This document shows positions 1 through 12,496 of a stretch of DNA of 12,496 bases, piece after piece; position 1 is the first letter of the stretch, and each line of letters begins with the position of its first letter. Below the pieces are notes generated by a model. The model was not told where the DNA came from, did no database searches, and saw nothing but the letters and a program-made list of their open reading frames with translations. The DNA lies in NCBI GenBank assembly GCA_024640925.1, contig JAHEEB010000033.1:1-12496 (forward strand). The letters are read 5' to 3'. Position numbers and translations under genes: made by a program. The DNA is from Bacteroidota bacterium. Lineage in GTDB: Bacteria > Bacteroidota > Bacteroidia > Bacteroidales > UBA10428.

Positions 1-147
1 TAATCGTGCTTTATAAAAATTATCCAATCATGAAAAAGTTCAATCTGTTTTTCATTCTGATAAAAATAGAATATTGAAAAAATTACAGACATTTTATACC
101 AGTCAGTACCCAACCGGGTTTAATTCACCTTTGATACATTGAACTAC

Positions 148-162
148 CCTGCCTATGGCAGG
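148..162. repeat. Perfect 6-bp hairpin with 3-base loop
   Basis: CCTGCC (148-153), loop TAT, GGCAGG (157-162). The stem is GC-rich in otherwise AT-rich DNA. No T-run follows on either strand, so it is not a classical intrinsic terminator. Its role is unknown. Confidence 0.45.
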
Positions 163-254
163 CTTGGTAAAGAGGTTTGCGGATCCCAATATGCATAGGG
201 ATGGCACGTAAAAAAGTAAGCAATGAACTAATAGGTTATCTTATTTATTAATCC

Positions 255-278
255 CAAATTACGCAATAACGTAATTTG
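255..278. repeat. AT-rich 9-bp inverted repeat
   Basis: CAAATTACG (255-263), loop CAATAA (264-269), CGTAATTTG (270-278). It is directly followed by a small GCCC-AAC-GGGC hairpin (278-288) and then the larger stem-loop at 288-322. Read on the minus strand it is the third of three consecutive hairpins after the stop codon of the small broken gene. It may contribute to transcription termination or mRNA 3'-end protection. Confidence 0.45.
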
Positions 279-287
279 CCCAACGGG

Positions 288-322
288 CTGACGAAAACTG
301 TAATTGTACAATTTTTCGTCAG
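288..322 (-). terminator. Stem-loop just after the small exported-protein gene
   Basis: CTGACGAAAA (288-297) pairs perfectly with TTTTCGTCAG (313-322), and TGTA/TACA (299-302 / 307-310) can pair inside the loop. The right arm ends two bases beyond the stop codon of the minus-strand gene (325-327), where a transcription terminator is expected. There is no T-tract outside the stem on the minus strand, so a classical Rho-independent mechanism is uncertain. Two further hairpins (278-288, 255-278) follow at once. Confidence 0.4.
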
Positions 323-324
323 GT

Positions 325-739
325 TTAATATAAGTCCGATAAGAGATCATACTCAACCAGTAATTCTTCGCCATCATAAATCTGAAAGCAAACATACTTC
401 TTACCGGAATTATAGCTCCAGTCGCCATACATAAAAACCCTGGTGTTTCCATCTTCTTTTAACAATTTCATAAAAACATAATTTTCTGTAATTTTCCCAT
501 TCATATATAACGGAAGCTTTTATAAACCGACCCCTTTATACAATAGGACTCTATTTGTTCGAGAGGAAGTGTCAATTTATCTCCGCAAAGAAGTATTATC
601 CTCGCATTTAAATCTGTGATTGTGATTTTTTTTACAAAGGTTTTTCCATCAATTGCATTGACCCACGAACTGTCATCGTCTTTTGCCGACATTGTCAGGC
701 TGTATCCAGCCAGAAAAAAAAAAGTATAAGTATTTTCAT
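325..739 (-). pseudogene. Small exported protein of unknown function, broken by two frameshifts
   Basis: The gene reads as one protein of about 138 residues only if two bases are added back. Frame A starts at ATG 739-737 with MKILILFFF, the start of a signal peptide, but a run of ten T (714-723) leads to an early stop. Eleven T would continue in frame into LAGYSLTMSA and the mature part that begins at the internal ATG 692. That frame again fails at AAAA (518-521). A fifth A would continue as YKKLPLYMNGKITENY and on to the stop at 325-327. The mature part has alternating hydrophobic residues suggesting beta strands, with motifs IDGKTFVKKI, LTLPLEQIESY and FMKLLKEDG. The pattern resembles small secreted proteins I recall from Bacteroidales genomes, which I cannot verify here. 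A promoter (773-804) and a terminator-like hairpin (288-322) frame it, so it is a stand-alone unit. No function can be assigned. Confidence 0.6.
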
Positions 740-772
740 CTCACATAATTTTAATTATTAATAAGTTTCAAT

Positions 773-804
773 CAAAGATTCATATTAATAATACAGGGTA
801 CAAA
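773..804 (-). promoter_or_regulatory. Bacteroidota-type promoter for the small exported-protein gene
   Basis: On the minus strand TTTG (804-801), a 20-base spacer, then AATCTTTG (780-773). This matches the Bacteroidota sigma-ABfr consensus (TTTG at -33, TAnnTTTG at -7, 19-21 apart) at all but one -7 position. It would start transcription around 766-768, giving a leader of about 28 bases before ATG 739. The -33 box lies inside a small palindrome ACAAA-TT-TTTGT (800-811). Spacing and position agree well with the gene model. Confidence 0.6.
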
Positions 805-948
805 TTTTTGTGTTATGCAACCTGGTTTTGTGATTATAAATACGTTGCCTGTGAAATTAACTTAATATTCACATTTACACACTGGCGCGTGTTTATTTCA
901 TTAAGGTAAGGGATTATTTGAATCCTCTCCCGATTATCTCTGTGAACC

Positions 949-978
949 TCTGTGGTAAATCGTCAGAAAAACCACAGA
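949..978. repeat. 8-bp inverted repeat, possible dispersed-repeat piece
   Basis: TCTGTGGT (949-956), 14-base loop, ACCACAGA (971-978). The left arm is the second half of an imperfect tandem, CTCTGTGAA then CCTCTGTGG (938-955). Runs like CTCTGTGAACCTCTGTGG recur, as far as I remember, in intergenic regions of many environmental genomes, so this may be a dispersed intergenic repeat. It could also form a weak stem-loop downstream of the kinase operon. Confidence 0.4.
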
Positions 979-1091
979 AGTTTATTGATATTGACAATGA
1001 CCTACAAAGCTTCAATGGTTTGTGTTGCGCACTGCCGAACCGCAGAGTCGAAAATAACAGTAATAATTTGTTAAATCGTTAGATCGAAGAA

Positions 1092-3422
1092 TTATCTTTT
1101 TGAATATGCGATTTGTTTCTTAAATTGATCATTTATTATACTTATCAATTGTTCCTCATTAAATGGTTTACTTATAAAACCATTACACCCGCAAGAAGTT
1201 GCTCTATCTATATCATTTTTTTCCACAAAAGCAGTTTGAGCAATCACTGGTAAGTCTGGTCTAAATTCCTTAATCTTTTTTGTTGCTTCAAATCCATCCA
1301 TTACAGGCATTTTTATATCCATCAGTATCAAATCAATGTCAGCTCTTTCATTACAAAATTCTACTGCCTGCAGACCATTAACTGCCCAGATTATTTTATA
1401 GTTTCTACCGGATAATAATTCCTGTATATATAAAAAATTATTCTCTTCATCCTCAGCAATAAGAATAGTCCTTGATAAAGTATCAGGAATCAGATTAGAA
1501 ATAGCATCATGGACATCCTGTTTTGTCTGGAGAGTCGCTTTTTTAAATGGAATGGTAAAATAGAATGTGGTACCTTTGGCTGGTTCTGATTCCAACCAGA
1601 TTTTACCTCCCAGCTGGTTAATATAGGCTTGCGAAATAGATAGCCCTAATCCGGATCCGCCGTAATGTCGTTCCGGCGAAAAATCAATTTGTCTGAACCT
1701 TTTAAATATCTCTTCGTGCATATTTGCTGGTATTCCAATACCTGTATCCTCGACCTGAAACTGAACAAAAGAGTTTTCTACCCTATAGCCATATTTAATT
1801 TGACCTTCTTTTGTAAACTTAAGTGCATTACCTAAAAGATTGCTTAAAATTTTTACCAGTTTAGCTTCATCCGTTAAGATATTAGCATCTTTATCAGGGA
1901 GATTTTTCTGTAAATTAAATATTAGATTTTGTTTTTGTGCGATAGTAATAAATTGATTATAAATATAATCAAGTAGTGAATTTAAATTAGTTATTTCTTC
2001 CTTAATTGTATCCTGGCCTGCTTCAATGGTCGCTATACTAATTATATCAATTATTATTGACAATAATCGATTACTGCTCTGGACTATTGTATTCGTGTAA
2101 AATTGTCTTTTATCTGTTGATAAATCCTCACTATTTAATAATTCTGAAAAACCTACTATTGCATTCATTGGTGTGCGTATTTCATGAGAAATATTATGAA
2201 GAAATGCTGTTTTAAGCCGATCGCCTTCTTCAGCTTTATCCTTAGCATATATCAGCTGTTCTTCAAATTTTTTACGTTCGGTAATCTCATGACCAAATCC
2301 GACTAAACCAACAATTTGATTATTTTCGCCGAACAATGGTATTTTGTTTATAAGCCTCCAATGTTCTTCTCCATTTTTATCAAAATAGTTGTCCTCTTGA
2401 TTTAATATTTGCTGGCCGGTTTGCATAACCTTCATATCTTCAGAATATCCGCGCATACCGGTTATAGAATCATAAATATCAAGATCGGTCTTTCCAATTA
2501 TTTCAGCTTCTGAAGCACAATTCATTATTTGCAAGTCAGCACTATTTGCAATTAACTTTCGACCATTACTATCTTTTACGTATATGGCATCAGGCAAATT
2601 ATCGATTAGCGTGCGAAGTAGAATTCGTTCCTGACGTATAGTTTCTTCAGCATCTTTTTGTTCAGTCAAATCACGGATAATCATACTGGTCTGCTCTTTA
2701 CCCTCTCTGTTTAAAAAAATTACAGAAGAAACCTCTCCCTGAAATTTTGTACCATCTTTTTTTATAAAAGTTAATTCTCCGCTTGCACGGTCATTTTTTC
2801 TTCTTTCATCTAAGAGTATTGATAATCTTGGGTCACTGATATCAACCAATTCATTTCTTCCTACCTGGCAAATCTCTTCATTAGTTCTGTCAAATAGCTT
2901 ACAAGCACAATTGTTTGCCGATAAAATACTTCCATCTGGAGTTGTTAATAAAATGGCAATACTCGAATTATTATAAACAGAACGGTACATATCTTCGCTT
3001 TCACGAAGTGTTTCAAGAGCAATTTTACGTTCAACAAGTACTTTTTTATTTTCCAGCACTTTTTTAATAGTAGGAGCCAATCCTTGAATATGTTTAACTG
3101 ATTTGATAACATAATCAGCAGCACCCATCTTCATGGCCTGAATTGCTATTTCCTCTGAGCCTGTGCCAGTAACAATGATTACGGGTACATCAGGGCATTT
3201 CTCCTTTACAAATTGCAAAACCTGCAACCCATCGAACCCCAATATATTAAAATCACTCAATATCAAATCATAATCTCCTCTGGCCAGATATTTCTCAAAG
3301 TCCTCACGGTTATCGGCTTCAACAATTTCAAAACCATTCTGTTCTTTTTGCAGGGCATCCTTAACGAGCTGCCGATCGTGTATATTATCATCGATATGTA
3401 AAATACGAATCATGGTTTTCAT
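1092..3422 (-). CDS. Hybrid histidine kinase, REC-PAS-PAS-HisKA-HATPase-REC
   Basis: A 776-residue cytoplasmic two-component hybrid with no membrane segment or signal peptide. Domains in order: receiver (5-125; acidic pair D11/D12, phosphoacceptor D57, T85, K107), PAS (about 140-260, ending in the usual IRDLTEQKDAEE linker), PAS (about 265-385, ending EITERKKFEEQ), HisKA with H413 in SHEIRTPMNAIVGFSELL, HATPase_c (N-box N528-N532, G1 DTGIGIP at 559, G2 GGSGLGL at 588-594), and a C-terminal receiver (652-768; D658, D702, T730, K752). All catalytic residues are present. It can in principle accept phosphate at D57, autophosphorylate H413 and pass phosphate to D702. It is the last gene of the operon, 28 bases after the single-domain regulator, whose phosphate or partner kinase may feed its N-terminal receiver (inference). 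ATG at 3422 is used; an in-frame ATG at 3413 (MIRILHIDD) is equally possible. Confidence 0.93.
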   Translation of the reverse strand: MKTMIRILHIDDNIHDRQLVKDALQKEQNGFEIVEADNREDFEKYLARGDYDLILSDFNILGFDGLQVLQFVKEKCPDVPVIIVTGTGSEEIAIQAMKMGAADYVIKSVKHIQGLAPTIKKVLENKKVLVERKIALETLRESEDMYRSVYNNSSIAILLTTPDGSILSANNCACKLFDRTNEEICQVGRNELVDISDPRLSILLDERRKNDRASGELTFIKKDGTKFQGEVSSVIFLNREGKEQTSMIIRDLTEQKDAEETIRQERILLRTLIDNLPDAIYVKDSNGRKLIANSADLQIMNCASEAEIIGKTDLDIYDSITGMRGYSEDMKVMQTGQQILNQEDNYFDKNGEEHWRLINKIPLFGENNQIVGLVGFGHEITERKKFEEQLIYAKDKAEEGDRLKTAFLHNISHEIRTPMNAIVGFSELLNSEDLSTDKRQFYTNTIVQSSNRLLSIIIDIISIATIEAGQDTIKEEITNLNSLLDYIYNQFITIAQKQNLIFNLQKNLPDKDANILTDEAKLVKILSNLLGNALKFTKEGQIKYGYRVENSFVQFQVEDTGIGIPANMHEEIFKRFRQIDFSPERHYGGSGLGLSISQAYINQLGGKIWLESEPAKGTTFYFTIPFKKATLQTKQDVHDAISNLIPDTLSRTILIAEDEENNFLYIQELLSGRNYKIIWAVNGLQAVEFCNERADIDLILMDIKMPVMDGFEATKKIKEFRPDLPVIAQTAFVEKNDIDRATSCGCNGFISKPFNEEQLISIINDQFKKQIAYSKR

Positions 3423-3450
3423 ATTTTTTGCTTTTTAAAAAGTATTGAGA

Positions 3451-3894
3451 TTAAACTCCAGGAGCATTTATATTTAAAGTAAACCAATAATCATCAATCT
3501 TTTTTACCACATCAGTAAATCCATCGAACGAAACAGGTTTCAGTAGATAGCTATTGGCACCGATATCGTAACTTAATGTGCGATCTCCTTCTTCTTTTGA
3601 TGAAGTAAGAATAATAACCGGAATTCGTTTAAGTACTTCGGTGCTTTTTATCTGACGTAATACTTCGAATCCATCAATTCCGGGCATCTTTAGATCAAGT
3701 AAAATCAGATTCGGCATTGGATATATAGTCCGATCATTAAACTTATTACGCCCTAAAAGGTAGTCTAATGCTTCCTGCCCATTCCTCACCACTTTTATTT
3801 CATTTTTAAGTTTAGCTTCCCTGAAAGCATCGAGTGTGAGAATAATATCCATCTGGTTATCTTCCACTAATAGTATTTTAGCTGGGTTTTCCAT
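3451..3894 (-). CDS. Single-domain response regulator, Rcp1-like
   Basis: A 147-residue stand-alone receiver with no output domain. Seen: acidic pair E11/D12 in ILLVEDNQMD, phosphoacceptor D67 in LILLDLKMPGIDG, T97 in VIILTSS, and K119 in LLKPV. The longer alpha1-beta2 stretch (LDAFREAKLKNEIKVVRNG) and the insertion before the D67 strand (LLGRNKFNDRTIYPMP) are typical of the Rcp1 family, which pairs with phytochrome-type kinases. The start MENPAKILL at 3894 is preferred over an upstream ATG at 3948, because it begins right at the first receiver strand. The gene overlaps the 3' end of the preceding kinase by 17 bases, implying translational coupling and a cognate pair. The output must be through protein contact or phosphotransfer to another component. 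Confidence 0.92.
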   Translation of the reverse strand: MENPAKILLVEDNQMDIILTLDAFREAKLKNEIKVVRNGQEALDYLLGRNKFNDRTIYPMPNLILLDLKMPGIDGFEVLRQIKSTEVLKRIPVIILTSSKEEGDRTLSYDIGANSYLLKPVSFDGFTDVVKKIDDYWFTLNINAPGV

Positions 3895-6184
3895 TTTGAT
3901 TTTTATTTGGTGGTAAACTAATAATAAAAGTAGATCCCTGTCCAACAACTGAATCTACCCATACTGTTCCATTGAGTAAACTCACTGCTTTTTTAACGGT
4001 GGCTAGACCAATACCAGTGCCGGGATAAGCCTCTTCGCTATGTAAGCGCTGAAAAATTTTAAATATCTTTTCCCAATATTCTCTTGGTATGCCAATACCA
4101 TTATCAACGATTTTCAGTAAATAGCCTTCTGAAACTGTTTCGGAGTGGATACCAATTTCTAAGGGAACGTCATTTCGCCGGTAGGTAATGGCATTTTCAA
4201 TCAGATTGGTAAAAATCTGGCGTAACAAGCTTTCATCTCCTGAAATTACAGGTAAATCATTATCCACAGCGAATCTAGCCTGTATTTCTTCCAATCTCTG
4301 TTTAAAATCGGCATATACAGTATCAATTATTTTATTTAATGATAGGGGTCGCATATCTAACGATTTCCTGCCCAGACGTGAATAATTTAGTAAATCATTG
4401 ATAAGTTGTTCCATCCGAACACTTGCTTCAACAATATAATCCATATATTGTCGGCCTTCTTCGTTAAGTGATTCGCGGTGGCGCCGCGAAAGGATTTGTG
4501 AAAAGCCGAAAATGGCCCGAAGCGGGGCGCGTAAATCGTGTGAGATAGAATAACTGAATGACTCCAATTCTTTATTAATCGATACCAGTTGAGCAGTTCT
4601 TTCGGCAACATTGTATTCTAAGGTTTGATTTAACTTTTGTATTTCTTCTTCGGCCTTTTTACGATCGGTTATATCTATTATTACTGCTATGCGGCATTCC
4701 CGGCCCATATATTCCAAATCGTTTGAAGTGACAATAATTGTTATTACCGAACCATCTTTCCGGATATGGTGCCATTCACCAACATAAGCCCGACTTTGTA
4801 AAGTTTTTGCTAATTCAACAATACGTTCTTTTTCTTCAGGTGGATAAAGATCAGGCAGAGACATAGAAAGTAATTCATCCGATGAATATCCATAATGATT
4901 AATAAAAACTTCGTTAATGGCTAATAATTTAAATGTATTACGGTCATATATTAGCATCGGAACAGGATTTTGCTCAAATAAAAAGCGATACCTTTCTTCG
5001 CTTATTCTTAATGCCTCTTCAGCCTTTTTACGTCCTGTAATGTCGTGAATTATCCCTAAATATCCCGACGAAGGATTATCTTGCTGAATGGGAGCGATAG
5101 TAAGAATTACATAAATTAAAGTACCATCGCTTCGGATCATTCTTGATTCGACCGATGAAATACCTTTTCCCTTAAGATCTGTGTATAATACCTCACCTAT
5201 CCGGTTCCACTCATTATCGTTTTCATATAACATGCGGGTTGATTTACCAAGCAGGTTTTCCTCAGTATAACCCAATATTTTGCACCAATAACTATTAATA
5301 CTTGTTTGTTTACGGTCTTTCAATATGCCAATACCTACAGGGGCAGCAGCGAATAAACTTCGAATAGTGCCTTCGCTCTGTTTTAGTTCTTCTTCCCTTT
5401 GTTTGCGCTCAGTTAGTTCGATATGCAACTGTTCGTTAGTCGTATTAAGTTTTGCTTCAGCAATATCCCGTTCAATCTGTCGTTGAGAAATTTGAAACAT
5501 TAAATTATCGAATTGTTGGTATAGAATTCCAATTTCATCATTCCCGGAATAATATAGCCTGTTTGAAAAGTCCTGACTAATAGAAAGATTTTCACTCACC
5601 TCAGCTAATTTCAGAATAGGAACAGAAATTAATTTCTGTAATCGTGATGAAATGAAATATACGATCAGGAAGAGCAGAAAAATGATAATTCCGGAAACCA
5701 GTAAATTCTTTTGAAATCTATCTTTTAATGCAATGGCAGAGATTTTTAAATAAATGGCGCCACAGTACTTTTCTTTAAAGGTTATTACGTGATAGATATG
5801 TAAATATCCTTTTGAAAATATAATACTTTCATTCTGCAGGCTTGGAAACACAAATGATTTATCAGGTGTTTTCTGGTATGATGCAATTATTTCACTGGAT
5901 AATGCACTATATAAGCAGGCATCCTGAATATCAGGGATTGAATAAAGTTTAGAAAGAATGTCTCTGGCTTCATCAGAATAACCAAAGAGCAAAGGAGCAA
6001 CAGAATATTGTCCGACAAGCTCAGCATTAAGTAAGGCATTTTTTTTTAAATCATTTTTAATCCCAGCCATATCGAATGATATATAAGTGATTAAAGCAGC
6101 AATAACAGCAATAAAGCTGGTTGACATGATAATTAATACCAGCTTTGTTTTAATCGCCTGGTTTTTGAATACAAATCGCTTCAT
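3878..6184 (-). CDS. Membrane sensor histidine kinase, CHASE8-HAMP-PAS-PAS-HisKA-HATPase
   Basis: A 768-residue inner-membrane kinase. TM1 is at about 14-36, the periplasmic domain at 37-160, TM2 at about 161-179 (VSGIIIFLLFLIVYFI) and HAMP at 180-235. A coiled linker leads to PAS (271-388) and PAS (395-510), then HisKA with H549 in YSISHDLRAPLRAIFGFSQIL, and HATPase_c (N660-N664, DNGIGIP at 694, GTGIGLA at 722). The last two are phytochrome/Cph1-type. The periplasmic part carries the signature of CHASE8, the sensor of YfiN/DgcN: the segment APLLFGYSDEARDILSKL (63-80), then IPDIQDACLYS and IIASYQ. Its ATG overlaps the stop of the yfiR-like gene as ATGA, so the two are translationally coupled. 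By analogy with YfiR-YfiN, the neighbour probably holds this sensor in check in the periplasm (inference). It lacks the GGDEF domain of YfiN. The likely phosphoacceptor is the Rcp1-like regulator that follows. Confidence 0.92.
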   Translation of the reverse strand: MKRFVFKNQAIKTKLVLIIMSTSFIAVIAALITYISFDMAGIKNDLKKNALLNAELVGQYSVAPLLFGYSDEARDILSKLYSIPDIQDACLYSALSSEIIASYQKTPDKSFVFPSLQNESIIFSKGYLHIYHVITFKEKYCGAIYLKISAIALKDRFQKNLLVSGIIIFLLFLIVYFISSRLQKLISVPILKLAEVSENLSISQDFSNRLYYSGNDEIGILYQQFDNLMFQISQRQIERDIAEAKLNTTNEQLHIELTERKQREEELKQSEGTIRSLFAAAPVGIGILKDRKQTSINSYWCKILGYTEENLLGKSTRMLYENDNEWNRIGEVLYTDLKGKGISSVESRMIRSDGTLIYVILTIAPIQQDNPSSGYLGIIHDITGRKKAEEALRISEERYRFLFEQNPVPMLIYDRNTFKLLAINEVFINHYGYSSDELLSMSLPDLYPPEEKERIVELAKTLQSRAYVGEWHHIRKDGSVITIIVTSNDLEYMGRECRIAVIIDITDRKKAEEEIQKLNQTLEYNVAERTAQLVSINKELESFSYSISHDLRAPLRAIFGFSQILSRRHRESLNEEGRQYMDYIVEASVRMEQLINDLLNYSRLGRKSLDMRPLSLNKIIDTVYADFKQRLEEIQARFAVDNDLPVISGDESLLRQIFTNLIENAITYRRNDVPLEIGIHSETVSEGYLLKIVDNGIGIPREYWEKIFKIFQRLHSEEAYPGTGIGLATVKKAVSLLNGTVWVDSVVGQGSTFIISLPPNKNQNGKPS

Positions 6185-6756
6185 TCAATTGTAGTATTTA
6201 CAATTTTGGAAACTCGCAATAATTTATAATCAATGGTGAATCCAGCAGATTCCATTGCTTTTTGATTTATTTCGAAATGCAATTTATCTTCGTAATTATA
6301 AAAACTGATAAAACAACCGGCTTCGGCAAATCCTTGCTTATCGGCTATAATAAGTATGGGTTTGTTATTAATAAAATCCAGGATATCTTTTAGCTCATTT
6401 TTTTTTATTTCAGGAATAAACAGGATTTGACATTCCGGTAAGTCACGAATGTCTTTTATATAAACAATTTTAACGGTTTTATCCTTTATCTTATGACCAT
6501 TATATACTCTTTCCAGGATATTTCCAAATGGGCTCTGGCCAAATACAGTAATAACAAATTGATCGTTTGTTTCATTAAAAGTATTTGGCGGCCAATCGAT
6601 AAATAGCGACAGTTTCTCAAACGCCACAGCTTTTACTTCATATTCAGGGGTTTGAGAGTACAAATCGAACTCAAAAAAGAAAGCTATAAGAATAATCAAG
6701 ACTAAATTGAAATGTTCCGATAGAAAATGAATAGTATGTGCAGGCTTTTTTCTCAT
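6181..6756 (-). CDS. YfiR family periplasmic protein (DUF4154)
   Basis: A 191-residue exported protein, close to the 190 residues of Pseudomonas YfiR. A signal peptide with a hydrophobic core (LVLIILIAFFF) precedes the likely mature start near QTPEYEVKAVAFEKLS. Family hallmarks: EYEVKAVAFEKLSLFIDWP, then FVITVFGQSPFG, ECQILFIP, ILIIADKQGFAEAGCFISFY, and LHFEINQKAMESAGFTIDYKLL near the end. Two cysteines remain in the mature part (in LPECQ and AGCF), fewer than the four of P. aeruginosa YfiR. YfiR is a periplasmic repressor of the CHASE8 cyclase YfiN. The next gene, overlapping by four bases, has a CHASE8 sensor, so the same contact is expected here with a kinase. The start MRKKPAH at 6756 lies two bases after the receptor stop. 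A start at 6792 would overlap the receptor and lengthen the peptide before the signal sequence, so it is less likely. Confidence 0.9.
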   Translation of the reverse strand: MRKKPAHTIHFLSEHFNLVLIILIAFFFEFDLYSQTPEYEVKAVAFEKLSLFIDWPPNTFNETNDQFVITVFGQSPFGNILERVYNGHKIKDKTVKIVYIKDIRDLPECQILFIPEIKKNELKDILDFINNKPILIIADKQGFAEAGCFISFYNYEDKLHFEINQKAMESAGFTIDYKLLRVSKIVNTTIE

Positions 6757-6758
6757 TT

Positions 6759-8153
6759 TTATTTGAATGTAATTTTCAATCCAAACATGCATGAAAATCC
6801 TGTATTTTTAAACTGCCATGGCATTTCATAATTGTTGTTGGTTATATTATAAAGTTGTGCAGTACATTCAACCCTAAATGAATTGCTTTTGGCAATGCAT
6901 TGAGCAATATAGATATTTACTAAAACACCCGGAGTAAACCGTGTTCTTTCCGTTTTTGACATACTATCGAAATAACCCCCGTTATAATTCAGCGTGGGTG
7001 CAAGAGTAAGGCCAAAAGGTGCGCTATAGTTTATACCGAAATTTAATATTCTATTCGGCGAAAAAGGTATTGCTACGTTATTCATAATTAGATTGGAATC
7101 ATTTTTTATATTTGAAGCTATAAGAGTGACATTAGCAAACCATGATAACTCATTGTTTATTCGTTGCGATACTTCTATTTCTCCGCCTTTTGAGTCTGAT
7201 GTGGCATTAATTGATTGTGTTTGCGAAGGATTCTGGCTTACAATATTGTCTATTATCGCTTTATTTAAAATAGTATAGAATAACCGGGCATCTACTTTGA
7301 GATGCATTGCTAGCTTGCATTCTGTTCCGAAATCAACACCGGTTCCCATTTCAGGTTTTAAACCAGGATTTGGCAGTTGTCCGTTATGACCAGGAACTTT
7401 GAAATCACCAATAGGAATCGTTCCGATGGCAGATTTAATTCCAGGTGGAGCAAAACTGCTTCCACCATTAGCAAAAACAGCAATCATCTCGTTCAGTGAA
7501 AATTTACCTCCTGCACTCCATATAAGTTTTTCCCATGAAGTTGTATTATTATCAGGCGAGATACTGTTTACAAGAGAAACCAGATTTTTGGTATACGTGT
7601 ATCGGATTCCACCCCGTATCATAAGTTTGTTAACAGGATGCCATTCTTCCTGGAAGTAAATGCCACTTTGAATACTCCCCGATTTATTGCCTAAAATTTG
7701 ATATCCAATCAGTGGATCAGACCATGTTGTATATGTTGCCCGCTGATAATCGATTCCTATACTGGTTAAACTCTTTTTTTCATATTGCCATGCAATTGAT
7801 ATATCAGCCGGTATGATAACCTGATTGACCCCATTATTCGATTTAAGGGTATCAATTATTCCGTAGATACTTTCCTGCCAGTCGCGGTCGTATGAACGTA
7901 TTCCAAGATGAGATTGCAGGTGGAGATTATCCTTCAGAGAAATATCATATCCGAAATTAAATGTTCTGTATTGGTTGTCATATCCACGATATACCCGTCC
8001 GGCATCACCCTTATGAATAGTTTCATGGTAGAAAAAAGATATTTTTTGTTTTTCATTTTTATCAAGGGGCAATGTCAACCCACCATATATCTTAATTTTA
8101 TCATATTCTGGGTTCTTTTTCATATTTAACCAAGAATTATCGGTTCCATAATT
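6759..8153 (-). CDS. TonB-dependent receptor, beta-barrel part (frameshifted from plug part)
   Basis: This frame is the downstream two-thirds of the outer-membrane receptor whose plug is encoded at 8126-8818. It is open from 8153 (NYGTDNSWLNMKKNPEY...); the first ATG is at 8123, but a protein starting there would have no signal peptide. The sequence has alternating amphipathic strands, long extracellular loops and a TonB-receptor style LKPEMGTGVDFGTE segment. It ends in FSCMFGLKITFK, with an aromatic residue next to the end as in BAM-recognised barrels. With one A added at 8152-8155 the two pieces join into a receptor of about 686 residues, the normal length for a simple receptor without a carboxypeptidase-like or STN domain. 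The substrate cannot be read from the sequence. It lies two bases upstream of the yfiR-like gene, so it heads that operon. Confidence 0.82.
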   Translation of the reverse strand, partial: NYGTDNSWLNMKKNPEYDKIKIYGGLTLPLDKNEKQKISFFYHETIHKGDAGRVYRGYDNQYRTFNFGYDISLKDNLHLQSHLGIRSYDRDWQESIYGIIDTLKSNNGVNQVIIPADISIAWQYEKKSLTSIGIDYQRATYTTWSDPLIGYQILGNKSGSIQSGIYFQEEWHPVNKLMIRGGIRYTYTKNLVSLVNSISPDNNTTSWEKLIWSAGGKFSLNEMIAVFANGGSSFAPPGIKSAIGTIPIGDFKVPGHNGQLPNPGLKPEMGTGVDFGTECKLAMHLKVDARLFYTILNKAIIDNIVSQNPSQTQSINATSDSKGGEIEVSQRINNELSWFANVTLIASNIKNDSNLIMNNVAIPFSPNRILNFGINYSAPFGLTLAPTLNYNGGYFDSMSKTERTRFTPGVLVNIYIAQCIAKSNSFRVECTAQLYNITNNNYEMPWQFKNTGFSCMFGLKITFK

Positions 8154-8818
8154 TTATAATCCGATATTTCGTATGTTACACCGCAGAAATAGTTAAGCTG
8201 ATTATGCCTATTTGCATGAAAAATCTGGCCGTTCAAGGTATTATATGAACCATATGAAGTTTGAAATGTATTGGAAAGCTGTTGTATTTTTTCTTTTAAA
8301 ACCAAGTTCACTGTTCCGGCTAAGGGACTTTGATTTCCAGCAAAATCCTGTGATAAATAATTCGGATAAATGACAGATGCTGGTCCTCTTTGTACTTCAA
8401 TACGATCAATTGCTTGTATGTCAAGTGACATAGGATCAATAAAAGCATCTATAGGAATTCCCTGTAACATATAGGTACTATATTTTGGTCCAATACCACC
8501 ATAGGTACCCCAATTTGCATCATTTCTTGAGAGAACGCTTATCGAAACTCCAGGCAATTTAGCAATAGCTTCGCATATATTTCGGTTGCCAAATACAGTA
8601 TTTTCGAGTTCATTAGAACTAATTAAATCTACTTTTTGAGTGACTTCATTTTCAGATTGTGGAAACTTGCAGGGAGTAATGACAACATTAAGGAAGTCAT
8701 CAAGGCTCAATTGAAATAATTGATCAACCGTAACTTTATTTATAGTATCCTGTGCTATTATTGCCGGATAATGGGCAATTACTAATAAACTTATTGCAAT
8801 ATTTATCCTTTTAAACAT
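8126..8818 (-). CDS. TonB-dependent receptor, signal peptide and plug part (frameshifted)
   Basis: The first 230 codons of the receptor. The signal peptide is MFKRINIAISLLVIAHYPAIIA. Then comes LFQLSLDDFLNVVIT, the short segment before the plug seen in receptors of the LSLEELLN type, and the plug (about 50-178): GNRNICEAIAKLPGVSIS, YMLQGIPIDAF, IDRIEVQRGPASVIYP, and AGTVNLVLKEK. The first barrel strands follow (FQTSYGSYNTLNGQ, YFCGVTYEISDY). After Y221-K222 the frame runs into nine unrelated residues and TAA at 8128-8126. The proper continuation sits one base out of phase at 8153. As written, the product would be a plug with little barrel and non-functional. If the missing base is a sequencing error the gene is intact. 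No STN domain is present, so it does not look like a FecA-type transducer. Confidence 0.82.
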   Translation of the reverse strand: MFKRINIAISLLVIAHYPAIIAQDTINKVTVDQLFQLSLDDFLNVVITPCKFPQSENEVTQKVDLISSNELENTVFGNRNICEAIAKLPGVSISVLSRNDANWGTYGGIGPKYSTYMLQGIPIDAFIDPMSLDIQAIDRIEVQRGPASVIYPNYLSQDFAGNQSPLAGTVNLVLKEKIQQLSNTFQTSYGSYNTLNGQIFHANRHNQLNYFCGVTYEISDYKIMEPIILG

Positions 8819-9009
8819 TGATTCGCTTTTTAAACAAGTTATTCTTAAAAAACTGGTATTTTCTCTACTTAAGTTTTGAAGGCTCTTAACAAAAATCTGT
8901 CTGAAATGTGAGTCTGCATAGTTTTGTATTGTTTCTGTTTTGAAAATTTATCTAAACCACCGTTAAAAACATAATATAAGGTAATTAAATCCAGACAATA
9001 ATTTACTAT

Positions 9010-9029
9010 TTGATGATATCTATCATCAA
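9010..9029. promoter_or_regulatory. Perfect 8+4+8 dyad, possible operator
   Basis: TTGATGAT (9010-9017), spacer ATCT, ATCATCAA (9022-9029). It lies about 110 bases before the plus-strand kinase gene and about 190 bases before the receptor gene. The arms are too AT-rich for a terminator, and the symmetry suits a dimeric DNA-binding protein acting on either operon. No DNA-binding regulator is encoded in the window, so any ligand protein is unknown. Confidence 0.35.
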
Positions 9030-9088
9030 CTTCCTGCAATAACTTGATTTTGTTTAATTTTTAAAAAAAGCTATGTACTGGATTTTCT

Positions 9089-9098
9089 ATTGGCCAAT
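9089..9098. promoter_or_regulatory. 10-bp palindrome ATTGGCCAAT
   Basis: A perfect palindrome 39 bases before the kinase start codon at 9138, touching the TTTG of a weak promoter candidate (9098-9129). It could be an operator, but a 10-base palindrome can occur by chance. Confidence 0.25.
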
Positions 9099-9129
9099 TT
9101 GCTAATTATCTGTTTTTTTAGTAATTTAT
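9098..9129 (+). promoter_or_regulatory. Weak promoter candidate for plus-strand kinase operon
   Basis: TTTG (9098-9101), 20-base spacer, TAATTTAT (9122-9129). The -33 box and spacing fit the Bacteroidota consensus; the -7 box matches four of six fixed bases. It would place the transcript start within a few bases of ATG 9138, giving an almost leaderless mRNA, which makes it doubtful. Confidence 0.22.
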
Positions 9130-9137
9130 AGATAGTT

Positions 9138-11468
9138 ATGGACACAGATAATATTAAAAGTGGAAAACCGAAAATCCTGATAGTTGACGATCAACCAGCA
9201 AATAGGATTTTGTTGGAGGAACAATTAGGCTGTCTGGAGGTTAATTTTGAACATGCTGAATCCGGTGAGCAATGTTTAGCTATGTTAAACGATAAATCTT
9301 ACGCCTTAATCTGTCTTGATGTAATGATGCCTGATATGAATGGATACCAGGTACTGGAAAAGATCCGTGCAAATCCGTTAACTGATACAATTCCGGTAAT
9401 TATGATATCGGCTGTCTTTCAAGGTGACGAACATATAATAAAGGGTATTTCAAAAGGAGCTTTCGATTTCCTTCCAAAGCCAATAAATGTTGAAATACTT
9501 ATCAGCAAAGTAAACAATTTTATTCAGCTCTATGAAAAACAAAAGAGATTAGACGATTTGGTTAAAAAGTTAGAAATCACCAACAAAAGACTGCTTGAAA
9601 ATGAACAAAAATTTAAACGAATTACTCAATCTGCAAATGATGCCATCGTAGTACTAAGTCCATCCTACGAAATTAAATTTTACAATAAAGCTTGTCTTGA
9701 AATTTTTGGTTATAACCGTTACGAAATTCTTCTGGAAAATATCTTTGAATGTCTCATTGTTAAGAATTCGGAAAAAATACTTGTGGAGAATATTGAAAAA
9801 TTAAGACAGTCCAAGGGATTGTCTAGTAAATCTTTTCGATTAACCGGAAAAAACAAAGTGGGACTTGAATTTCCGGTTGAATTGTCCCTTGCTTTATATG
9901 AAACTGCTGAGGAAGAGTTTAATTATACATTAATTATAAGGGATATTAGCCATCAGGTAAAAACTGAAAAAGAAGCATTGGCCGCGAAAGAGCTAAGAGA
10001 AGCTAATAAAATAATGAAAGAATTTGTTGACAAGGTTACCCATGAGCTAAGAAGTCCGATGACTGCTATAATAGGAATTTCTGATTTGCTAATCAAATAT
10101 AATTCTCAAAACTTACAAAATAAACAAATAGAAGGGTTAAAATTAATCAATCAAAGTGGCAACCGGTTACTTGATCTTATTAATGATATACTCGATGTTT
10201 CCAAGCTGGAAGCAAAAAAACGTGAAGTACGTGTTGAGCGGTTTAATTTGAATGAATTTCTTGCAGAAATACGATCAATAGGTATGACCCTTATCGGTGA
10301 TAAGCCTATCAAATTCATTGTTCGAAAGAGTCCTGCCGTTTCTGAGTTTATTTCTACCGATCCAAATATTCTCTCACAAATACTTAACAATCTGCTTAGT
10401 AATGCGGTAAAATTTACCAATGAAGGCACAATAAGACTGCTAATACATCCTAAAGATAACTTCCTGTATTTCGAAATTAGTGATACCGGGATAGGCATCA
10501 GTCAAGAAAATCTGAAAATTATTTTCCGCAAATTTGAACAGATTGATAATTCTGCCAGCAAACAATATAAAGGTACCGGATTAGGATTGTATATTATAAA
10601 AAAGCTTATTGAACTCATGAAAGGTGAAATTCATGTAGAAAGTCAGATTGATGTTGGCACTAACATGATGTTCCATATTCCTGTTGTTCTGGAAGAAGTG
10701 ATTTTGCATGATGATATGCATGAAAAAGAAAACCCCCTTTTATATTTTAATAGAATAGACAAAACTACATCAAAGATTGCTGTGATTATTGATTTCAGAA
10801 CAGAATCTCATTATTTGTTAATACCTGTACTAGAAGAAGAAAATTATTTAGTATGTTCCTGCTATAGCTCGAATGCGGGATTATATGCAATAAAATCATA
10901 CTTGCCAGATATTATAATTCTTAAAATGGAAATGCCTAAAATACATGGCCATATGATTTTAAGAGAGATTGAAAATAACCTTTATCTTTCATCCATACCG
11001 GTCTTAATAATAAGTTCTATTGATGATTTTTCTCAAAAACCTATAATTAATCCATACAAGATCATTGATGAACCTCTTATTGCAAAAGATTTTATAAGGA
11101 ATGTCCGCAAACTCAATCTAAAACAATTTAACAAACTGAAAGTGGAGAACGTAATTATTACAGAAAAGCATAATAGGACTATTTCAAGCAAAGCGAAAAA
11201 CACAGAATTATTTGAAAATACGGATTTTGAATGCACTCAGCTTATAATCTTTAGAAGAATAATTATGCGATTGATACTTGATGGTATGGAACCAAACTCA
11301 AATAATTATAAAATTCTCGAATGGATTTTATCCAATAAAAGCAAATGTATTGAGGAATTTTATGTGATTGCTGAAGATCTTCCAACTAAAATATACAATT
11401 TGGTAAATACAACTCCAAACATCAAGATTATAAAAGAACAGGAGGTAAATTTATTCACAGCTCAGTAA
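9138..11468 (+). CDS. Hybrid histidine kinase, REC-PAS-HisKA-HATPase with degenerate receiver and extra tail
   Basis: A 776-residue cytoplasmic protein without membrane segments. N-terminal receiver (11-128; D17/D18, phosphoacceptor D61 in CLDVMMPDMNGY, S91, K114), coiled linker (130-158), PAS (159-275), HisKA with H302 in VTHELRSPMTAIIGISDLL, HATPase_c (N418-N422, DTGIGI at 449, GTGLGL at 479-484), then a receiver-like domain (545-660) and a tail (661-776). The receiver-like domain keeps the strand pattern and the MPKIHGH loop, but the phosphoacceptor position is K596 (ILKMEMP) and the usual KP lysine is E645 (DEPLI), so it cannot be phosphorylated in the normal way. The tail has no motif I recognise. 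The gene starts a plus-strand unit; the next kinase follows after 14 bases. Its length equals that of the other hybrid by coincidence: the domain order differs. Confidence 0.9.
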   Translation: MDTDNIKSGKPKILIVDDQPANRILLEEQLGCLEVNFEHAESGEQCLAMLNDKSYALICLDVMMPDMNGYQVLEKIRANPLTDTIPVIMISAVFQGDEHIIKGISKGAFDFLPKPINVEILISKVNNFIQLYEKQKRLDDLVKKLEITNKRLLENEQKFKRITQSANDAIVVLSPSYEIKFYNKACLEIFGYNRYEILLENIFECLIVKNSEKILVENIEKLRQSKGLSSKSFRLTGKNKVGLEFPVELSLALYETAEEEFNYTLIIRDISHQVKTEKEALAAKELREANKIMKEFVDKVTHELRSPMTAIIGISDLLIKYNSQNLQNKQIEGLKLINQSGNRLLDLINDILDVSKLEAKKREVRVERFNLNEFLAEIRSIGMTLIGDKPIKFIVRKSPAVSEFISTDPNILSQILNNLLSNAVKFTNEGTIRLLIHPKDNFLYFEISDTGIGISQENLKIIFRKFEQIDNSASKQYKGTGLGLYIIKKLIELMKGEIHVESQIDVGTNMMFHIPVVLEEVILHDDMHEKENPLLYFNRIDKTTSKIAVIIDFRTESHYLLIPVLEEENYLVCSCYSSNAGLYAIKSYLPDIIILKMEMPKIHGHMILREIENNLYLSSIPVLIISSIDDFSQKPIINPYKIIDEPLIAKDFIRNVRKLNLKQFNKLKVENVIITEKHNRTISSKAKNTELFENTDFECTQLIIFRRIIMRLILDGMEPNSNNYKILEWILSNKSKCIEEFYVIAEDLPTKIYNLVNTTPNIKIIKEQEVNLFTAQ

Positions 11469-11482
11469 ATTATAATAATAAG

Positions 11483-12496
11483 ATGGAACTGCCAAAAATT
11501 TTAATTGTTGATGATGAACCGGCCAATTTATTTTTAATATCTGGTCTTTTAAATTCGAATGGATATGAAACTTATACCGTAGATAGTGGAATAAAGTGTT
11601 TCGAATTTTTGGAGAAAAATATGCCGGATTTGATTTTACTTGATATTATGATGCCAAAAATGACTGGCAACGATGTTCTCGTTAAACTTATAGAATCAGA
11701 GGTTTACAGGAATATACCTGTGATAATGGTAACGGCAAAAGTAGCTGCCGAAGATGTAAGTGAATCATTAAATAGAGGTGCCATTGATTATATTCGAAAA
11801 CCATTTAATGAAATAGAATTATTAGCACGGGTGAAAGTAGGTATCCGATTAAAGCTAAACGAAGACAATTTGCGCAATATGGTTCAGCAACGAGATAACT
11901 TCGTAAGAATAATATCCCATGATTTACGATCGCCATTTACGGCAATTCATGGTTTTGCCCAGTTGCTAATGAATGAAGAAAATCTGACTTCCGAACAAAA
12001 GGAGTTTGTAAATTATATTATCGATTCTGTTCAATATAGCAATGACTATTTTAATAAACTTCTTAGTTGGACAATGCTAGAATCATCGGATTTAAAGTTG
12101 AATTTATCGGAAGTGAATTTGTATAAACTTTTTGAAGGAGTGATTAGAATATTTCATAATAACTCGAATGAAAAATCGATACTTATCCTATCCAATGGTG
12201 ATGAGAACCTTACGATTCGAGCTGATGAGACTTTTTTCAGGCAAGTTATTGCAAACCTAATTAATAATGCTATAAAATTTACCCCTGAAAATGGCATCAT
12301 TGAAGTTAAAGCAGTAAAATCATCCGATAAAATTTATATATCGGTAAGTGATACGGGGGTTGGTGTACCTGCGGAAACCACTAATGATGAATTATTTTCG
12401 GGTAAAATTTTAAAATCGGAACGTGGAACAAAAGGCGAGAAGGGAACAGGTATTGGTTTGTCCATATGTAAAAAAATAGTTGACGCTCATTCCTTT
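11483..12496 (+). CDS. REC-HisKA-HATPase histidine kinase, 3' end beyond window
   Basis: Partial: 338 codons up to the window edge, no stop. Receiver (4-120; D10/D11, phosphoacceptor D54 in LILLDIMMPKMTGN, T84, K106 in YIRKPF), short coiled linker, HisKA with H146 in IISHDLRSPFTAIHGFAQLL, and HATPase_c (N258-N262, DTGVGVP at 290, GTGIGLS at 321). The window ends just after the G2 box, so only about 20 to 30 residues of the ATPase domain, or further domains, are missing. There is no membrane segment. This is the regulator-first, soluble kinase type common in Bacteroidota. The ATG at 11483 begins the first receiver strand (MELPKILIVDDE). It follows the preceding hybrid after 14 bases and is probably co-transcribed. 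It could take phosphate from another kinase on D54 and adjust its own H146 activity (inference). Confidence 0.9.
   Translation, partial: MELPKILIVDDEPANLFLISGLLNSNGYETYTVDSGIKCFEFLEKNMPDLILLDIMMPKMTGNDVLVKLIESEVYRNIPVIMVTAKVAAEDVSESLNRGAIDYIRKPFNEIELLARVKVGIRLKLNEDNLRNMVQQRDNFVRIISHDLRSPFTAIHGFAQLLMNEENLTSEQKEFVNYIIDSVQYSNDYFNKLLSWTMLESSDLKLNLSEVNLYKLFEGVIRIFHNNSNEKSILILSNGDENLTIRADETFFRQVIANLINNAIKFTPENGIIEVKAVKSSDKIYISVSDTGVGVPAETTNDELFSGKILKSERGTKGEKGTGIGLSICKKIVDAHSF

Follow-up and report, generated by a model that had tools for sequence, protein, structure and literature searches.

A YfiR-CHASE8 histidine kinase cluster headed by a TonB-dependent receptor in a Bacteroidota bacterium: a candidate switch across the cell envelope

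Introduction

A stretch of 12,496 nucleotides from a Bacteroidota bacterium of the Bacteroidales lineage UBA10428 (assembly GCA_024640925.1, contig JAHEEB010000033.1, positions 1 to 12,496 of the forward strand), here called the window, carries a gene cluster in which a TonB-dependent receptor is followed by a YfiR-like periplasmic protein, a sensor kinase with a CHASE8 domain and a receiver. The question raised by this locus is whether the receptor acts as the outer-membrane partner of YfiR, in the position that the lipoprotein YfiB holds in the YfiBNR system, as an earlier note made from the DNA letters had proposed. We regard it as an evenly balanced proposition that the cluster forms a trans-envelope switch, in which a helix of the receptor just before its TonB box would compete with the kinase for YfiR.

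The core of the cluster is already known in outline. The section on divergent Yfi systems in PMC3375315, published in 2012, describes YfiR-YfiN cores with kinase, Hpt or GGDEF-EAL outputs and without YfiB, and finds that almost all divergent YfiR systems have no YfiB. The window has the same kind of core, with yfiR beside a YfiN-PAS/HAMP sensor with a kinase output and no yfiB, and is a diverged form of this recognised kind. No receptor is named in that section, and the term TonB is absent from the main text of the paper, supplementary tables apart. Searches of an open-licence library turned up no paper that connects YfiR to a TonB receptor.

Receptors beside YfiR genes

DUF4154 (PF13689), the YfiR-type family, was found in 19 of 148 Bacteroidota genomes, the window's genome included, and the neighbourhoods of all listed YfiR places outside the window's genome were typed with home-made profiles. 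A single-sequence scan of genome contigs yielded two loci only. A TonB receptor lies on the same strand within two genes at 18 of these 23 places. Wherever YfiR stands beside a CHASE8 sensor or is fused to a typed kinase, a receptor is found at this distance (14 of 14, made up of 12 places beside a sensor and two fusions, L097 and L099). The 12 include L104, whose contig ends after CHASE8-HAMP, and three loci of a single genus, g42 (L086-L088), in which a SusC-like receptor two genes up was not listed by the home-made profile; this receptor is confirmed by Pfam for L087 and taken from that sister locus for L086 and L088. Gene order is reversed in L100. The other receptor-linked YfiR places are L101, L103, L106 and G071:C47, the last being kept out of the 14 as a 715-residue YfiR frame beside a receptor, with its remainder untyped. 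At the five remaining places, three in genome G166 and one each in G069 and G065, no receptor was found within two genes. The idea that adjacency reflects mere receptor abundance was rejected, Plug matches numbering 2 to at least 64 per genome (61 genomes of about 2-6 Mb) against receptors at 14 of 14 places.

The same neighbourhood recurs in other phyla, on proteobacterial plasmids with a kinase or an EAL protein as output. Plasmids were surveyed by tblastn with two YfiR proteins, CHASE8 being sought in the plasmid proteins with a home-made profile, and all six records with a YfiR match have receptor sequence upstream. Sphingobium indicum pSRL1, Sphingobium sp. TomTYG65 and an Indioceanicola plasmid carry receptor, YfiR and CHASE8 kinase; in Pseudoalteromonas Bsw20308 receptor and YfiR are accompanied by a CHASE8-HAMP protein bearing GGDEF and EAL, in Pseudoalteromonas HL-AS1 an IS30 transposase lies between receptor and YfiR, and in CuT4-3 the receptor is in two coding sequences. 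A receptor query matched 318 plasmid records, of which 18 of the 60 listed were examined: 10 adjoin YfiR (H5-H13, H15); in H14 and H17 (Massilia) the receptor is followed by a different sort of protein, which in H14 looks substrate-binding-like by eye, and by a kinase; the receptors of H18, H23, H24 and H26 show no link to YfiR; and H16 and H21 are unannotated there. The receptor query also retrieved four sets of receptor, YfiR and EAL protein in Burkholderiales that were overlooked by the YfiR queries. Elsewhere YfiR is accompanied by EAL proteins and, in L068, by a methyl-accepting chemotaxis protein (MCP), where the order is YfiR-YfiR-MCP-receptor, and it is fused to a SpoIIE phosphatase domain in L081:6599-8416 and L085:6881-8434.

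Receptor distances and YfiR distances are correlated (27 pairs; Mantel r 0.65, a value that none of 5000 shuffles attained). Of 46 YfiR homologues retrieved from 5.8 billion proteins, 14 lie on a contig of exactly the same length as that of a receptor homologue among the 120 listed, pointing to co-location.

A segment before the TonB box

Receptors linked to YfiR share a segment like xxLxxLSLEELLNVxV directly before VTSAS (alignment A1), which we take to be the TonB box. Counted as present at 5 bits or more against a motif model, the segment occurs in 17 of the 20 model members by leave-one-out and in 12 of 15 held-out receptors adjacent to YfiR, the window included, a count that is not fully independent because L109 and L163 are close kin of model members and L167-L169 are close kin of each other. 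The three misses are L063 (4.2 bits), L099 (1.9) and L101 (-0.5). Kept out of the 15 were receptors at contig ends (L142 at 16.7 bits, L143 at 2.1, L148 at 10.2), the remnant in L072 (-3.6) and two receptors of L106 in which the segment was seen by eye (FSLKNLMDVRIVT and FSLKSLMEVRIVT). None of 30 background receptors carries it, the highest score being 2.6 bits; these are the receptor loci with the best Plug scores in the 61-genome search, chosen regardless of their YfiR neighbourhood. It is likewise absent from all six plasmid receptors without YfiR. The ranking of motif matches was not used as evidence alone because its top 13 are model members, hence the leave-one-out counts and the background set. 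Among homologues longer than 600 residues of the intact receptor of locus L016, 79 of 119 score at least 5 bits.

A different link is found at L103, where a single 434-residue open reading frame (ORF), CarboxypepD_reg-TonB_C-YfiR, lies beside a receptor with the segment. The 98 genomes of L103's class hold five YfiR genes (three by Pfam and two divergent ones by home-made profile), and all five (L103, L144, L145, L106/L223 and L221) are fused to or adjoin a CarboxypepD_reg/TonB_C-type gene. TonB_C is recognised by Pfam in L103, L144 and L145, and only CarboxypepD_reg in L106; the assignment of L106 and L221 rests on alignment to the L103 protein.

YfiR and its CHASE8 sensor

The YfiR-like protein of the window matches PF13689 at 120.7 bits (E 6.9e-35, cut-off 24.9), and its AlphaFold2 model has a mean pLDDT (predicted local distance difference test score) of 88. 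When the model was compared with the PDB by Foldseek, the top 15 matches were YfiR chains, at 12-16% identity and query TM-scores of 0.55-0.59; phmmer of the sequence against the PDB gave no matches, and a profile search then recovered the solved YfiR. CHASE8 is matched in kinase residues 43-114 at 30.9 bits against a cut-off of 27, a partial match over profile positions 2-70 of 102. HAMP falls 0.9 bits under its cut-off of 25, at 24.1, and the further Pfam domains of the kinase are two PAS, HisKA and HATPase. The earlier note had read these genes as a YfiR-CHASE8 pair whose output is PAS-PAS-HisKA-HATPase instead of GGDEF, and had called for the YfiR and CHASE8 searches, both of which uphold its reading. 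A chance match to CHASE8 was considered and rejected: the score is above the cut-off, the motif phenylalanine is conserved, and 11 of the 15 above-cut-off CHASE8 places in the 148 genomes adjoin YfiR, two of the 11 being in the window's genome.

In the part of PMC3375315 that deals with binding, YfiR contacts are mapped to AAVVF on YfiN and to Val160, Phe162 and Leu183 on YfiR. The window's counterpart of AAVVF is APLLF, whose phenylalanine is F67. This residue is present in all 18 aligned CHASE8 sensors, 17 of them YfiR-linked and the other, C851, at a contig end; the stricter pattern A[AP]xxF holds in 7 of the 18 only, and the motif phenylalanine is missing from a Massilia kinase that has no YfiR neighbour. 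In the window's YfiR, the counterpart of Phe162 in the solved protein is Phe161, which is invariant in the 53 sequences of alignment A3. Alignment A3 excludes four divergent YfiRs (L100, L102, L104, L105) that have isoleucine instead, so that the fair count is the 26 of 30 given by alignment A2. Judged by these alignments, the published contact residues between YfiR and its sensor are largely kept in the window proteins.

In L160:7177-9568 and L165:6096-8489 a CHASE8 or CHASE8-like kinase follows a PhnD-like or ABC-substrate-binding-like protein (by eye) in YfiR's place.

Relation to known systems

The window resembles the YfiBNR system of Pseudomonas aeruginosa (PMC3375315, PMC4655355) in that YfiR stands beside a YfiN-type periplasmic domain with HAMP, the motif phenylalanine and the Phe162 counterpart are kept, and a putative outer-membrane partner is present. 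It differs in that the output is a histidine kinase and a receiver rather than GGDEF, a TonB receptor is found instead of YfiB, and three of the four YfiR cysteines are absent. A scan of eight window proteins for an OmpA/Pal-like domain of the YfiB lipoprotein gave nothing at E 0.01. GGDEF was found in none of the 21 genomes of a set made up of the window's genome (82% complete) and 20 relatives, by a search that was positive in 8 of 14 control genomes, and the kinase output thus fits expectation.

NCBIfam release 20 holds three consecutive models for the same three kinds of gene, NF053590 (TOL_0244 receptor), NF053591 (TOL_0243 YfiR-like) and NF053592 (YfiR-associated kinase). The window passes none of their cut-offs: its YfiR scores 104.8 bits against 125 and its kinase 138.8 against 194, and neither half of its receptor nor the intact L016 receptor matched NF053590 at E 1e-3. 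In Indioceanicola and Sphingobium indicum the receptors and YfiRs pass, and the kinases, at 85.6 and 80.7 bits, are below 194.

With the FecA-type transducing receptors (FecARI) the window's receptor shares a proposed role of its N-terminus in signalling to the inner membrane. It differs in having no STN domain, its N-terminal half giving only Plug at E 0.01, and its neighbours are YfiR and a kinase where FecARI has FecR and a sigma factor.

The gene cluster and its receptor

The features of the cluster are collected in Table 1. The end of the receptor and the ATG of YfiR are 2 bases apart, the YfiR and kinase genes overlap by ATGA at 6181-6184, and the receiver begins inside the kinase gene with its ATG at 3894, an overlap of 17 bases. 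Both overlaps are exactly those given by the earlier note, and its description of the receiver as Rcp1-like agrees with PDB relatives that include RcpA, RcpB and Rcp1. The hybrid kinase, which lies beyond the region that note covered, probably belongs to the cluster, since a receiver (REC) gene and then a REC-PAS-histidine kinase gene stand behind the kinase in L090 and L097; variants occur in L016 and L099. An Rfam scan gave no matches, and promoter matches were no more numerous than in shuffled sequence. At 9138-12496 of the window, two further receiver-headed kinases lie on the plus strand, divergent from the receptor.

Table 1. Features of the cluster, all on the minus strand, in the order TonB-dependent receptor (2 ORFs), YfiR, CHASE8 kinase, receiver, hybrid kinase
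Feature	Position	Strand	Basis
TonB-dependent receptor, N-terminal half: signal peptide (by eye), pre-TonB-box segment, plug	8126..8818	-	Plug
Pre-TonB-box segment DQLFQLSLDDFLNVVIT	8675..8725	-	16.8 bits against the motif model made without this sequence
Frame break in receptor gene	8126..8156	-	Frame switch relative to L016; second frame open from 8153
TonB-dependent receptor, beta-barrel half, second frame	6759..8153 (ATG ORF 6759-8123)	-	TonB_dep_Rec_b-barrel
YfiR-like periplasmic protein	6181..6756	-	PF13689 (DUF4154) match
CHASE8-HAMP-PAS-PAS-HisKA-HATPase sensor kinase	3878..6184	-	Pfam
CHASE8 domain of sensor kinase	5843..6058	-	Pfam
APLLF motif in CHASE8, counterpart of YfiN AAVVF	5984..5998	-	Alignment; AAVVF from the binding part of PMC3375315
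Single-domain Rcp1-like response regulator	3451..3894	-	Response_reg 69.4 bits; PDB relatives
REC-PAS-PAS-HisKA-HATPase-REC hybrid kinase	1092..3422	-	Pfam; same position in other loci

The first gene had been described as a single TonB receptor and must be corrected to two ORFs in different frames. The N-terminal half matches Pfam Plug at 48.4 bits (cut-off 23.9) and aligns to residues 21-221 of the L016 receptor at 72% identity, and the barrel half matches TonB_dep_Rec_b-barrel at 97.6 bits and aligns to residues 223-686 at 59% identity. The genome has a receptor paralogue, on contig C202, whose frame stays open across the break site. The assembly is a draft of 1131 contigs, and the break may be either a true mutation or an assembly error. 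Broken receptors recur beside intact pairs of YfiR and output, in the window, L072, HL-AS1 (IS30) and CuT4-3 (two coding sequences), and loss of receptor input may be selected.

Locus L016 (SACF01000004.1) has an ORF list nearly the same as that of L017, from a Bacteroidales metagenome-assembled genome, and its Alphaproteobacteria label is probably wrong. At L016:2573-7719 a second receptor-YfiR pair runs divergent from the receptor-YfiR-CHASE8 set, with a kinase that has an NMT1 substrate-binding domain instead of CHASE8 (Pfam).

The same genome and close relatives

A second copy of the cluster lies on contig C1115 of the window's genome, with a receptor 3' end, YfiR, a CHASE8 kinase (again with a 4-base overlap), a 120-residue gene and a receiver. 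The genome has six DUF4154 genes; besides the two sets these are L011 (a YfiR-receptor pair without a kinase), L014 (a YfiR-kinase fusion, by Pfam), and L012, at a contig end, and L013, with no receptor or kinase in view. DUF4154 occurs in 15 of the 21 genomes of the relatives set, the window's genome included. At five loci of relatives YfiR is followed directly by a receptor with no kinase (L038, L042, L048, L058, L063). L045 (G005:C27) has four YfiR genes in tandem that adjoin neither a receptor nor a kinase, and tandem YfiR pairs stand at L039, L067, L068 and L091.

The proposed switch and its alternatives

In the switch that we propose, YfiR in the periplasm would lock the CHASE8 kinase in one state via the APLLF face of its sensor domain, a grip that is established for YfiN and that we infer here from conserved residues. 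The input would be the outer-membrane receptor. When a ligand binds and TonB tugs at the plug, the short helix before the TonB box (LSLDDFL) would be freed and capture YfiR; the kinase, thus released, would phosphorylate the Rcp1-like receiver and, probably, also the hybrid kinase that follows. The conjectural steps are the contact between YfiR and the receptor, its direction, the roles of ligand and TonB, and the order of phosphotransfer. YfiB contacts the same C-terminal face of YfiR, according to the structural passages of PMC4655355, and so provides a model for a competing outer-membrane partner.

Comparative evidence for the putative receptor-YfiR partnership is good, and the claim of the earlier note that the receptor replaces YfiB gains from the gene order across phyla, from the receptor signature and from the one YfiR-TonB_C fusion. 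Several observations weigh against it. The gene order, whose lack of conservation in related genomes that note would have taken as a refutation, is conserved in the phylum, with a receptor at all 14 places; in the 20 nearest genomes, with 56 YfiR places, the complete order of receptor, YfiR and CHASE8 kinase was not found, although the home-made receptor profile may overlook SusC-type receptors. Five YfiR-CHASE8 loci occur in these relatives: L049 and L070 are at contig ends, L065 and L080 have no receptor, and L072 has a 93-residue remnant (7211-7492). Four of the five YfiR-kinase fusions in the family, own genome included, also have no receptor (L014, L076, L078, L084), and the fifth, L074, retains a fragment of one. 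Species phylogeny is part of the Mantel correlation, and the nearest neighbour of the receptor is also that of YfiR in just 12 of the 27 pairs. The segment may just mark a receptor clade, as 3 of 8 non-adjacent receptors chosen for resemblance to the model carry it (L146, L147, L149); L147 comes from genome G107, another contig of which has a YfiR-TonB_C-kinase-receiver cluster without a receptor. AlphaFold2 predicts the segment of the L016 receptor as an isolated helix, residues 31-42, of very low confidence (block means 28-32). No second TonB_C-YfiR fusion was found in the 98 genomes of L103's class, and a protein search gave only L103's own entry (P0167), for which the same four domains are precomputed. 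TonB_C genes are moreover abundant there, G153 giving 11 matches, so that the fusion argument loses force without falling away altogether.

The receptor might instead be cargo, an uptake receptor that shares a transcript with a YfiR-kinase system or is under its control, the system itself detecting something else, for instance envelope stress or a small ligand that YfiR binds. This somewhat unlikely explanation draws on the YfiR-kinase pairs that do without a receptor (L065, L080 and the fusions L014, L076, L078 and L084) and on the CHASE8 kinase behind another periplasmic protein in L160 (by eye). YfiR also resembles a substrate-binding protein, its fold being one lobe of that class in the structural account of PMC4655355, and Foldseek matches include 8wgl and 3lft. 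Cargo does not readily account for the recurrence of the same receptor type and segment next to YfiR in sets with a kinase output, with an EAL output and with no output in view, nor for the YfiR-TonB_C fusion. Another reading, an unlikely one, is that the switch in the window's genome is decaying or receptor-less, the frame break being real and YfiR and kinase now acting without receptor input. The window's receptor is frame-broken, L072 retains a remnant, and two Pseudoalteromonas plasmids have an interrupted or split receptor (L162, L163); broken receptors in several loci imply that the rest of the set can persist without one, which also tells against the proposed switch. The two halves of the window's receptor, however, are still 72% and 59% identical to L016 along almost its whole length, so that the break would be recent or an assembly error, and the C202 paralogue reads through the site.

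That YfiR is mainly a redox brake we consider very improbable. Such a role is reportedly played by HmsC in Y. pestis. It is also described for P. aeruginosa YfiR in the relevant passages of PMC4655355, and C109 of the window's YfiR, the counterpart of Cys110, is conserved in at least 90% of 39 relatives. The positions aligned with Cys71, Cys145 and Cys152, however, are not cysteine in the window, and the only other cysteine of the domain lies elsewhere (GCF).

Implications

A wider reading of the proposed switch is that YfiR usually has a TonB receptor as its outer-membrane partner and YfiB is a special case, the helix before the TonB box being a YfiR handle. By pulling on a loaded receptor, TonB would then directly shift YfiR between the receptor and the inner-membrane sensor. 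We put this reading forward tentatively, inclining towards doubt. If true, it would add to the STN/FecR/sigma factor type a separate, second class of TonB receptors that signal. Their outputs would be interchangeable (kinase, GGDEF-EAL, perhaps MCP), and the YfiR-TonB_C fusion would be a collapsed form. The sharp prediction is that one short peptide before the TonB box binds YfiR. The wider reading would also explain the input of the divergent YfiR systems, almost all of which have no YfiB in the account given by the divergent-systems section of PMC3375315. If YfiR is handed between receptor and sensor, this would be a general route by which kinases or cyclic di-GMP enzymes, beyond sigma factors, may read uptake at the outer membrane.

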